Below, piece by piece: positions 1,198 to 6,118 of a stretch of DNA of 6,539 bases. The notes beneath the pieces are model-generated. The model was given only the letters and a program-made list of their open reading frames with translations. It was not told where the DNA came from and ran no database searches. The stretch covers positions 1 through 6,539 of the forward strand of contig JALVIU010000001.1 of the NCBI GenBank assembly GCA_027028665.1. The letters run 5' to 3'. Positions within the stretch are counted from its first letter, which is position 1. Each line of letters starts with the position of its first letter. The translations under genes and the position numbers were made by a program. Source of the stretch: Candidatus Atribacteria bacterium. Its GTDB lineage: Bacteria > Atribacterota > JALVIU01.

Positions 1198-1848
1198 TTA
1201 CTTTATTACCACCTGACTCCATAATTCATCTATACCTTCCTTTTTGTTAAATAATTCATTAAAACCAATAAAAATATTATCCAGAATCTCAAATAAAAGA
1301 TCCCGAAGGGGATAAGTCCTGAGAGTCAGATCATACATAGTTGTAACTATTTCGGAGATCTCATCTGGCATATCTTTTACACTATTATTCACATTTAGAC
1401 CTATACCTATATAGATCGTTTCCACACTTTCTCTTCTTACTTTTGTATCTATAAGGATGCCAGCTATCTTTTTGCCATTCCAGAACCCCTCCCGGCCTCC
1501 CCTTTGAAAGGGGAGGGGTATGTATATATCATTTGGGGGTTTGACCTGAGAATGTATATTATGATTTTTAAGAGTCCTGACCAAAGAAAGTGCAGGAATC
1601 TTTACTATATACGGAAGATATTCTCGTGGAAAACCAGAAGGGCAAAAAGAGAGGGTAAACCAGAGTCCTCCTTCAGGAGATACCCAATCTCTTTTTTTTC
1701 TCCCCCTTCCATCTTTTTGGATATCTGCCCAGATGACTATCTTCTTATGCTCACACAAAAATTCTCTTATTAGATCAGAAGTGGAACCTACCTTTCTATA
1801 ATGGTAGATCAGGATATCCTTATACCAGAATTTTTCAGCTTCCTCTAT
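1198..1848 (-). CDS. birA: Biotin-protein ligase (BirA-like), short form with an in-frame palindromic insertion
   Basis: Predicted biotin-[acetyl-CoA-carboxylase] ligase, which makes biotinyl-AMP and attaches biotin to carboxyl carrier proteins. In 216-residue numbering, GSTSD (about 32-36) is the N-terminal STN-like motif. [12 protein letters not shown] (47-58) is the ATP/biotin glycine-rich loop, KPPND (103-107) stands in place of the usual [16 protein letters not shown] (124-134) carries the biotin-contacting lysine, and IGIGLNVNN (147-155) is conserved. There is no N-terminal DNA-binding domain. The protein ends at ELWSQVVIK, where the C-terminal SH3-like domain would begin, so that domain is missing. 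A 13-residue insert ([13 protein letters not shown], 111-123) separates two normally adjacent motifs. No ATG, GTG or TTG precedes the GSTSD motif in frame. I place the start at ATA 1848, 8 nt after AGGAGG and overlapping the hisIE stop. CTG 1812 is an alternative, and TTG 1758 would remove the motif. The gene could be decaying. Confidence 0.78.
1480..1518 (-). repeat. 39-bp in-frame palindromic element inside birA
   Basis: Relative to the family pattern NDIYI-NGKKIAG, exactly 13 codons are inserted here. The core is palindromic in two ways: CCTCCCCTTT (1496-1505) pairs with AAAGGGGAGG (1507-1516) around one base, and ACCCCTCCC (1485-1493) pairs with GGGAGGGGT (1511-1519). It is strikingly GC-rich against its AT-rich surroundings. 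This looks like a dispersed palindromic repeat that landed in frame in a gene, similar in behaviour to the Rickettsia palindromic elements. No other copy is visible in the window and no target duplication is obvious. Confidence 0.7.
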
Positions 1849-2483
1849 CTCTCCTTCCTCCTGCCCCTGAGCTCCTCAAATATCTTATAAAGCGGTATAT
1901 CCATAAAACCAAGAAGTACCATTGTATGAAACCAGAGGTCTGCTACTTCATATATGATCTGTGCTTCATCTTTATCTTTGTAAGCTATAACTACTTCTGT
2001 AGCCTCCTCACCGATTTTTTTAGGAAGTTTATCTTCTGGATTAGAAAAGAGATAGTTTACATACGAACCCTCTTTGGGGTTTTGCTTTCTATCCTTAATT
2101 ACACCCATTACTTCTCCCAATACATCATAGGAATCCTCCTTCTCCACAATGTTAAACTTAGGGGAAATCTCTCTGTAAAAACAGGAGTAGTGTCCTGTAT
2201 GACATGCCACACCTACCTGCTCTACCAGTAGTAAAATGGTATCCTCATCACAATCTATTCGGATCTCCTTTACATACTGATAATGTCCCGATGTCTCACC
2301 CTTTTTCCAGAGCTTTTGGCGAGAACGAGAAAAATAGTGGGCAATCTTTGTTTCAAGGGTCAGCCTGAGAGCCTCCTCATTCATATATGCCACCATAAGT
2401 ACCTGTCGTGTAGAATAATCTTGCACTACAGCAGGCACAAGGCCTCTATCATCAAATTTTATACTATCTATAATATCCTTTAT
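1845..2483 (-). CDS. hisI: Bifunctional phosphoribosyl-AMP cyclohydrolase / phosphoribosyl-ATP pyrophosphohydrolase (HisIE)
   Basis: Catalyses steps 2 and 3 of histidine synthesis: pyrophosphate removal from PR-ATP by the C-terminal HisE domain, then ring opening of PR-AMP by the N-terminal HisI domain. In 212-residue numbering, HisI shows [14 protein letters not shown] (9-22), [15 protein letters not shown] (52-66), DCDED (77-81), [10 protein letters not shown] (93-102) and the zinc-binding cysteines 78, 94 and 101. HisE shows GSYVNYL (139-145), [15 protein letters not shown] (155-169) and EVADLWFH (179-186), a MazG-like helical metal site. The length fits fused HisIE proteins. The conserved KFDxxGL stretch lies upstream of the first GTG (2438), so translation must begin earlier. 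The frame opens after a TGA at 2493-2495 and has no ATG, GTG or TTG. I choose ATA 2483, which overlaps the hisF TAA by 4 nt with GAGG 7 nt upstream. ATT 2486 is possible. Confidence 0.93.
1857..1862 (-). promoter_or_regulatory. Shine-Dalgarno AGGAGG placed for an ATA start of birA
   Basis: A perfect AGGAGG sits inside the last codons of hisIE, 8 nt upstream of the ATA at 1848. No standard start codon lies at a usable distance, so this site is the main reason for choosing ATA. Confidence 0.6.
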
Positions 2484-3235
2484 AATCTTACCTCAACTCC
2501 TTTCTCTCTCAGATATTCCTTTAGTTTCTCTATCCTTAGTTCCCCAAAATGAAAAAGAGAAGCTGCAAGTGCTGCATCTGCATGGGCATAATCAAATACC
2601 TCGAAAAAGTGCTCTACCTTCCCTGCACCACCTGATGCAATAACAGGGATAGAAACTGCATCTGAGATAGCCCTTGTAAGTTCAAGTTCATACCCATCCT
2701 TTGTTCCATCTTTATCAATACTTGTAAGGAGGATCTCTCCTGCGCCCCTATCTTCTACCTCTTTTGCCCATTTTACTGCATCAAGTTCAGTAGGAGTCCT
2801 TCCTCCTTCTACATATACCCTATACATATCCTCATCCTTTTTGGCATCTATTGCCACTACTATACATTGGGCCCCGAATCTCTCAGAGGCCTCCTGGATA
2901 AAATCTGGATTCCTTACAGCCTGGGTATTAATAGAAACCTTATCAGCACCTGCCATGAGGAGATTCTCTATATCCTGAATATTTCTTATTCCTCCACCTA
3001 CAGTAAATGGGATAAATACATTTTGGGCAACTCGCTCCGCTACATCGAGCATGATATTTCTCTTCTCATATGATGCAGTTATATCTAAAAAGACGAGTTC
3101 ATCTGCCCCTTCGTCATTGTATATTTTCGCAAGATTAACAGGATCTCCTGCATCTATAAGACTTACAAAATTTACACCCTTTACTACTCTACCCTCTTTC
3201 ACATCAAGACAGGGAATTATTCGTTTTGCAAGCAT
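2480..3235 (-). CDS. hisF: Imidazole glycerol phosphate synthase, cyclase subunit HisF
   Basis: The (beta/alpha)8-barrel cyclase uses ammonia from HisH to turn PRFAR into imidazole glycerol phosphate and AICAR. The 251-residue length is normal. The catalytic aspartates fall at the expected places: D11 in [14 protein letters not shown] and D130 in VVAIDAKK. The phosphate-binding loops are FTVGGGIR (77-84) and, in the second half barrel, [19 protein letters not shown] and [14 protein letters not shown] are also family signatures. ATG 3235 follows directly on the hisA stop (TAG|ATG), and its Shine-Dalgarno GGAGGAGA (3243-3250) lies within the end of hisA, so translation of the two is probably coupled. 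The partner glutaminase HisH is encoded one gene upstream, with hisA between. Confidence 0.98.
2491..2494 (-). promoter_or_regulatory. Shine-Dalgarno GAGG placed for an ATA start of hisIE
   Basis: GAGG within the last codons of hisF is 7 nt upstream of the ATA at 2483, good spacing for initiation. It is only 4 nt from the alternative ATT at 2486. The competing GTG at 2438 also has a GAGG, but only 4 nt away, and would cost a conserved segment. Confidence 0.5.
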
Positions 3236-4573: not shown

Positions 4574-5157
4574 ACAAGTAACCCCTTTGTAGATGGAATA
4601 TCATCTCCTGTAAGAGATGTAGCTATATGTAAGGATTTTCCCAATGCCTTAAACATAGCCTCAATAACATGGTGTGCATTTTCACCTCTTATCATATCCA
4701 CATGAAGTGTAATCCTGGCCTGATTAACAAATGCCCTTAAAAATTCTACTACAAGACTTACAGGAAAATCCCCTACACGTTCCTCGTAAAACTTTACATT
4801 ATAAGATAGATAAGGTCTCCCACTTATATCCAATACCACCCTTAAAAGTGCATCATCCATAGGAAGTAAAAAGGCACCAAATCGCTCTATTCCCTTTGCA
4901 TCCCCTACAGCTTTAAGGATTGTACTCCCAAGCACTATCCCTACATCTTCCACTGTATGATGGAAATCTACCTCGAGGTCCCCTTTTGCCTTAAGCTCTA
5001 AGTCAAACCTCGCATAACGAGAAAAGGAGACAAGCATATGATCGAAAAAAGGGATCCCTGTATCTATATCTGCTAATCCCTTTCCATCAAGATTCAATGT
5101 GCATAAAATATCTGTCTCCTTTGTCTTTCTCTTCAAGGTATAGGTTCTATCAGCCAT
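4570..5157 (-). CDS. hisB: Imidazoleglycerol-phosphate dehydratase (monofunctional HisB)
   Basis: Mn-dependent dehydratase converting imidazole glycerol phosphate to imidazole acetol phosphate, the substrate of HisC. The 195-residue protein is the dehydratase alone, without the N-terminal histidinol-phosphatase domain of the enterobacterial enzyme. Metal ligand motifs are FFDHML (37-42), DFHHTVEDVGI (64-74), H152 in LHVD and NAHHVIEA (160-167). The C-terminal IPSTKGLL (188-194) is the normal family ending. ATG 5157 overlaps the end of the upstream HAD gene by 8 nt and has GAGGG 7 nt upstream. It is notable that the gene directly before it encodes a separate HAD phosphatase, as though the two enterobacterial HisB activities were split into neighbouring genes. 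Confidence 0.98.
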   Translation of the reverse strand: MADRTYTLKRKTKETDILCTLNLDGKGLADIDTGIPFFDHMLVSFSRYARFDLELKAKGDLEVDFHHTVEDVGIVLGSTILKAVGDAKGIERFGAFLLPMDDALLRVVLDISGRPYLSYNVKFYEERVGDFPVSLVVEFLRAFVNQARITLHVDMIRGENAHHVIEAMFKALGKSLHIATSLTGDDIPSTKGLLV

Positions 5158-6118
5158 TTTTATCCCTCAAATATTCTAAAAATTCATTTACACTGGGAAA
5201 TACAAAAGAGGCACCTATCTTCTTATAAGTCTCAAACCTTATACCTGCATCACTTTCTGTACCCCTGGAAAGCACCATACAGGAAAGCACCTCTTTTCTT
5301 CCTGCCCTTTTATTATAATTCTCTGTAACCCTATAATCATCCATGGTATCCCCTATAAATACAGCCATTTTAAAATCTAATCTCTCTTTTAGTATTTCAA
5401 GACCCCTGGGGTCGGGTTTATCAGGGATTTCACTATTTGTAAGTATATATTCATCACTAATAAGGTCAAAGAGCTTGATTTTTGGTTTTATTATATCTAC
5501 CTCTTCCTTTAACCTCCCTGTAAGTACACCTATCTTATATCTCTTTACAACATCTATAAGATCCTCTCTCATAAGAGGTTTTTCTTTTTCTATTACACCA
5601 TCATCTTTAAAATACTTCGGTTCAAATCCGTATAAAATCTTAGTATACTTACCTGCATATGATTCCATTCCAATCTTTTCTATAAGTTCCTCATCGTATG
5701 AAACCTTATCAACAGGAAGCCCCTCATCCTCAAGAAGTCTTAAAAACCTCTCAAAGCCCCCTCCCATTTCCCTTAACCTCTCCAGAACCAAAACAAGATC
5801 TGGTGGTTTACTCATAAGCTTTTCAAGGTCTTTTGTGTTGTATTTTATAGATTTTGCAATAAAAAATATGGCAACTGCCTTTAAGATATTCCACTCATTA
5901 TTAAACCCACCAGTAAGTTTAAACAATTCTACCTGTTCATAGGGAAAAAACTTATCAGGTCCTGAAAAACCGTATATATCCTTTAGATAGATATCAAGGG
6001 CAATCCTGATACTATCACTATATGAGAATCTTGTATCTATAAGTACACCATCTATGTCAAATATAAGGGTATCTATATCATCTATATTGACATCTTCATC
6101 AACCCAAGAAAGATTCAA
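5150..6118 (-). CDS. HAD-superfamily phosphatase; candidate histidinol-phosphate phosphatase
   Basis: A 322-residue haloacid dehalogenase-fold protein with all four catalytic motifs. Motif I is FDIDGVLID (nucleophile D21, acid/base D23), motif II is GVLTGR (T200), motif III is K234 in KPDPRGLEIL, and motif IV is GDTMDDY (D257, D260, D261). The cap is inserted between motifs I and II (about residues 30-190) and is unusually long. It contains FKLTGGFNNEW, which I associate with the uncharacterised HAD subfamily IA group described by TIGR01548. The start is TTG 6118: AAGGAGG lies 7 nt upstream, and TTG overlaps the hisC stop as TTGA. The gene sits between hisC and hisB in an operon with no other histidinol-phosphatase, so I infer that it removes phosphate from histidinol phosphate. 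The enzyme class is firm; the substrate is inference. Confidence 0.88.
   Translation of the reverse strand: MNLSWVDEDVNIDDIDTLIFDIDGVLIDTRFSYSDSIRIALDIYLKDIYGFSGPDKFFPYEQVELFKLTGGFNNEWNILKAVAIFFIAKSIKYNTKDLEKLMSKPPDLVLVLERLREMGGGFERFLRLLEDEGLPVDKVSYDEELIEKIGMESYAGKYTKILYGFEPKYFKDDGVIEKEKPLMREDLIDVVKRYKIGVLTGRLKEEVDIIKPKIKLFDLISDEYILTNSEIPDKPDPRGLEILKERLDFKMAVFIGDTMDDYRVTENYNKRAGRKEVLSCMVLSRGTESDAGIRFETYKKIGASFVFPSVNEFLEYLRDKNG

Follow-up and report, generated by a model that had tools for sequence, protein, structure and literature searches.

Putative AUA starts of hisIE and birA in an Atribacterota histidine operon, with candidate AUA and AUU starts elsewhere in the genome

The histidine operon of Candidatus Atribacteria bacterium (contig JALVIU010000001.1) raises the question of where translation of two of its genes begins. 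The window, i.e. the whole stretch of 6,539 nucleotides that was analysed, carries on its minus strand the genes hisC-HAD-hisB-hisH-hisA-hisF-hisIE-birA, in this order, followed by a methyltransferase. The original prediction was that hisIE and birA, having no ATG, GTG or TTG ahead of their conserved N-termini, start at an ATA placed within a 4-nt overlap with the preceding stop codon, and that the organism uses AUA for coupled initiation. The features of the two junctions are the following.

2480–3235, minus strand: hisF, the gene upstream of hisIE; its TAA overlaps the hisIE ATA
2493–2495, minus strand: TGA closing the hisIE frame 4 codons upstream of the ATA
2491–2494, minus strand: GAGG, Shine-Dalgarno (SD) sequence of hisIE, 7 nt ahead of the ATA
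2484–2486, minus strand: ATT, a second candidate for a non-standard hisIE start, directly before the ATA and with an SD score about equal to it
2481–2483, minus strand: ATA, proposed hisIE start codon, in the ATAA overlap (2483-2480) with the hisF stop; no ATG, GTG or TTG from TGA 2495-2493 to residue 16, and an ATG at or near this position in most relatives
1845–2483, minus strand: proposed coding sequence of hisIE, running from ATA to TAG, for HisI cyclohydrolase and HisE pyrophosphohydrolase (PF01502, PF01503, NF002747)
1876–1878, minus strand: TGA closing the birA frame 10 codons upstream of the ATA
1857–1862, minus strand: AGGAGG, SD of birA, 8 nt ahead of the ATA
1846–1848, minus strand: ATA, proposed birA start codon from the reading of the frame, in the ATAG overlap (1848-1845) with the hisIE stop
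1198–1848, minus strand: proposed coding region of a birA-type biotin--protein ligase, from ATA to TAA (PF03099; TIGR00121)

Both junctions are arranged as the prediction had described them, in codons, coordinates, spacings and closed frames. The ATA forms the first three bases and the stop codon the last three bases of ATAA and ATAG, produced by the ends of hisF (...TTA TAA) and hisIE (...AGA TAG). After its TGA, the hisIE frame reads GGT AAG ATT ATA AAG GAT ATT ATA GAT AGT ATA AAA TTT GAT; the first standard codon downstream is GTG 2438, at residue 16, within sequence conserved in relatives (KFD..GL.P..QD). In birA, none of the nine codons between the TGA and the ATA is ATG, GTG, TTG, CTG, ATT or ATC, and the first standard codon downstream, TTG 1758, corresponds to residue 31, past the RKVGSTSD sequence. 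The N-termini predicted from the ATA codons are (M)KDIIDSIK for HisIE and (M)EEAEK for BirA, in which the first residue would be formylmethionine. Both spacings fall within the norm of this genome, where the distance from SD to ATG peaks at 5-8 nt. Local RNA folding at the two starts was no better than that of shuffled sequences. The sites resemble the ATGA, GTGA and TTGA overlaps of coupled genes, since start and stop codons share bases, and differ from them in that the start is ATA, hence the stops are TAA and TAG. Other 4-nt overlaps in the operon are ATGA, between hisB and hisH, and TTGA, between hisC and HAD; the latter provides the TTG start of a HAD-type hydrolase (window 5150-6118, between hisC and hisB), which is TIGR01548-like with a score under the cut-off.

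Taken together, these features suggest that hisIE and birA are probably intact genes translated from AUA, which would act as a general, weak start directed by the SD and possibly helped by coupling. In the proposed mechanism, the SD located within the end of the preceding gene would position the 30S subunit, and the initiator fMet-tRNA, whose anticodon is CAU, would pair with AU, the mismatch on the third base being tolerated; this mismatch is one that IF3 normally disfavours. Through its overlap with the stop codon ahead of it, the AUA would receive ribosomes that terminate on hisF and hisIE; this may raise an inherently weak start, from which a reduced yield is expected. The overlap geometry alone is weak evidence for ATA starts and is unsurprising: in this genome there are 34 junctions where a gene follows TAA or TAG in the 4-nt register, and 19 of these carry an A ahead of the stop. 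The force of the case, as read from the sequence, is in the missing standard starts, the SDs and the N-terminal homology.

The hisIE start was also compared with that of relatives, which belong at closest to the same phylum, the best HisIE identity being 57%. Twenty-nine HisIE loci were compared, almost all of them from this phylum. In 28, an ATG stands no more than a few codons away from the position that aligns with the hisIE ATA, and it often falls exactly on it (e.g. L010, L013, L015, L021); the exception, a locus from another phylum (L026), has TTG. Thus the ATA start of hisIE is not conserved in the relatives behind these 29 loci. A standard start, defined as one anywhere in the frame before the eleventh codon, was present in 333/333 control genes (hisF, hisA, hisH, hisB and hisIE, from relatives and loci of other species).

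Further genes with the same appearance were found in the genome itself, a fragmented metagenome assembly of 413 contigs with a completeness of 89.9, of which about 403 kb of readable sequence was sampled, contigs below about 3 kb being mostly masked. Among the standard starts in this sample ATG predominates, TTG and GTG being less frequent. The strongest further case of a missing standard start appears to be mnmE (L051, 788-786, minus strand), where an ATA lies 8 nt after AGGAGGT and a TAG closes the frame 8 codons upstream (TAG GCG GAA GAG GAG GTA GAA AAG ATA GTC GAC TTT GAT ACT ATC GCA). No standard codon occurs near its N-terminus, VDFDTIASISTPPGEGGIGIVRISG, which from the ATA is predicted to be (M)VDFDTIASISTPPGEGGIGIVR; TrmE_N matches from residue 6, and the matches of the relatives' MnmE proteins start at residues 2-6. 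In mnhG (L138, 629, plus strand), an ATA in an ATAG overlap follows AAGGGGGGAG; the next standard codon is a TTG, and a start there would cut part of the first hydrophobic stretch. In the gene of an MFS transporter (L039, 953, minus strand), an ATA follows the AAGGAGG of AAGGAGGTGA at a distance of 8 nt, and the sole in-frame GTG of the start region (AAGGAGGTGAAAAAAATA) lies inside the SD. An apparent ATT start was found in infC (L252, 1459-2001, minus strand), two codons after an in-frame TAA (TAA AGA ATT TCT AAA AAG). Two further possible ATT starts are less certain. One belongs to a lytic transglycosylase (L172, 60, plus strand), with GAGGTGA as SD and a signal peptide directly after the ATT, the other to an O-antigen-ligase-like protein (L179, 1720, minus strand).

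Many other genes lacking an obvious start behind an SD were set aside; they actually have ATG, GTG or TTG without an SD, or their coding onset had been misplaced, as for rpsD on L226. Ambiguous cases were also excluded, namely dnaB on L220 (ATA GGT ATG), a phosphatase on L197 and L221 1747. The lipoprotein gene of the window had been put forward as a third case, with ATA 239 as its start; here two ordinary codons, ATG 257 and ATG 272, are present ahead of a normal lipoprotein signal (MIKTTILSLIIFLLIGGC), and the proposal was dropped.

Outside this operon, a minimum of two or three unrelated genes of the genome thus look like hisIE and birA, which probably reflects actual use of a start signal that is known though seldom documented, rather than sequencing mistakes. 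The claim of coupled initiation at AUA holds in part: AUA is the best reading for hisIE and birA, and the pattern recurs in mnmE, mnhG and the MFS transporter, but a device specific to 4-nt overlaps is not supported, as mnmE and the MFS transporter use ATA outside any overlap and infC, possibly with the two other genes, appears to use ATT. The occurrence of the same type of start outside overlaps therefore suggests a general, weak, SD-dependent start rather than a special coupling code, and AUA and AUU initiation are probably real and recurrent in this genome independently of the 4-nt overlap.

Pooled scans did not reveal a significant excess of ATA, because it is a very common codon in this genome (5.6% of codons, 56 per 1000). 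Among 33 genes with a strong SD and no standard start in register, ATA is found in the SD register in 10, and shifted controls gave 5-11. The whole-genome pattern GGAGG-N5-9-ATA was uninformative, with 446 matches vs 576 for the reversed pattern. The argument is accordingly carried by individual genes, in the first place mnmE, followed by birA and hisIE.

Alternative explanations have different weight at the different genes. It is unlikely, yet worth considering, that another non-standard codon is used, either ATT 2486-2484 in hisIE or CTG 1812, or another near-cognate, in birA. In hisIE the ATT equals the ATA by SD and spacing, with scores of 8.1 and 8.0, and infC of the same genome appears to start with ATT; moreover, in the birA frame the TIGR00121 match sets in only around residue 13. 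However, ATT does not account for birA or mnmE, where ATA is the sole near-start codon in the SD register, and in birA the best SD points to the ATA, the CTG being preceded by AAGGA only. Use of the downstream standard codons, GTG 2438 and TTG 1758, both in frame, is very improbable: the shortened proteins would begin inside or beyond the conserved sequences described above, the SDs are weak (5.9 for the GTG), and mnmE offers no such codon near its N-terminus.

The remaining alternatives concern the integrity of the sequence and of the genes. A true ATG could have been changed to ATA by errors of sequencing or assembly, or by mixed strains; in favour of this, the assembly is fragmented, and ATGA is the overlap that one would normally expect between hisF and hisIE. 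Such an origin is nevertheless quite improbable: several unrelated contigs are affected, always on the third base of a start codon that has an SD ahead of it, and in birA a G at position 3 of the codon would also destroy the hisIE stop, so that no single error restores a normal junction there. Very improbable is also that the genes are decaying, with start codons lost and hisIE and/or birA poorly expressed or silent. The modest score of BirA (99.5 bits for TIGR00121, cut-off 83.1), an in-frame palindrome and the sequence VKPPNDI in place of the KWPND usual in the family suggest that birA may be degenerating. Against this, hisIE and birA have uninterrupted frames of 212 and 216 codons, both score at family level (263 bits for HisIE with NF002747, cut-off 187), strong SDs are kept, and mnmE and hisIE are housekeeping genes. 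The birA palindrome (window 1488-1520, CCTCCCCTTTGAAAGGGGAGG with its flanks) lies between NDIYI and NGKKIAG and looks like an inserted repeat unit, of which the sampled contigs of the same genome yielded no second copy.

Initiation at AUA in hisIE and birA would be of a kind already known, as AUA is among the listed bacterial initiation triplets (PMC4611024) and, rare as the prediction held it to be, has been proven for infC, ccpN and citZ of Staphylococcus aureus (PMC13009471). In reporters, the AUA starts of ccpN and citZ yield about 10-30% of AUG output, and that of citZ is confined to one S. aureus lineage (PMC13009471); in Escherichia coli O104:H4, a change of ATG to ATA in rpoS cut RpoS up to 5-fold (PMC12864459). 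The genes described here resemble S. aureus infC, ccpN, citZ and cvfC1 in that a strong SD precedes the AUA or AUU at normal spacing (PMC13009471). Unlike them, they are read from sequence, whereas the S. aureus starts were established by ribosome profiling and reporters; in addition, the non-standard starts of ccpN and cvfC1 are conserved among relatives (PMC13009471), whereas here housekeeping and operon genes are concerned and the starts are not conserved in the relatives examined. The apparent ATT of infC recalls the AUU start of E. coli infC, which is repressed by IF3 (PMC5472188); for hisIE, birA and mnmE, by contrast, no reason is known why they should respond to the IF3 level. The MFS transporter is similar to Streptomyces sigR, having an in-frame GTG inside the SD and a candidate non-standard start 3' of it; in sigR, however, the codon is GTC, and both the start and its repression by IF3 were shown by experiment (PMC5472188). 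IF3 overexpression represses non-canonical starts (PMC2268962; PMC5472188).

The IF3 of this genome is otherwise normal, with a score of 205 bits (cut-off 60), and has a serine (FSGRE) at the position of E. coli Arg131 (FRGRE). The E. coli IF3 allele R131P relaxes start-codon discrimination. In solved IF3 structures this position is occupied by Arg (8jsg_A and 5lmn_X) or Lys (5me0_Y). By pattern search, FRGRE was found inside infC in seven relatives of the phylum, those that could be read at this position (G002, G004, G008, G012, G026, G027, G030), and FSGRE in the genome of the window only, the remaining relatives giving no match. As a hypothesis, the serine could be the cause of a relaxed choice of starts. 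It is conceivable, if doubtful, that this is a lineage with relaxed start-codon selection, helped by the IF3 serine, in which AUA and also AUU would be ordinary minor starts of perhaps 1-2% of genes, including housekeeping ones. The evidence comes from one genome, in which the unusual traits are the number of housekeeping genes concerned and the IF3 serine at an otherwise conserved basic position. No tRNA with a CAU anticodon (Met, initiator or Ile2) was present among the 28 tRNA genes found in this genome (G000); presumably these genes are missing from the assembly or lie on masked contigs.

As gene-finding programs usually accept no starts other than ATG, GTG and TTG, they will probably truncate or overlook genes such as hisIE, birA and mnmE in genomes of this type. 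If the lineage often starts at AUA or AUU, it would offer a natural test of the stringency of start-codon selection set by IF3, and of whether strong SDs or coupling offset weak starts. A minor observation in the same genome concerns a gene on L167 (5359-5425, plus strand) starting RRISYIADKISDLLAKWVLG, which looks like a TRAP transporter small subunit: AAGGAGGT precedes its ATG by about 40 nt, and the interval between the two may form a hairpin (GGGAG...CTCCC).
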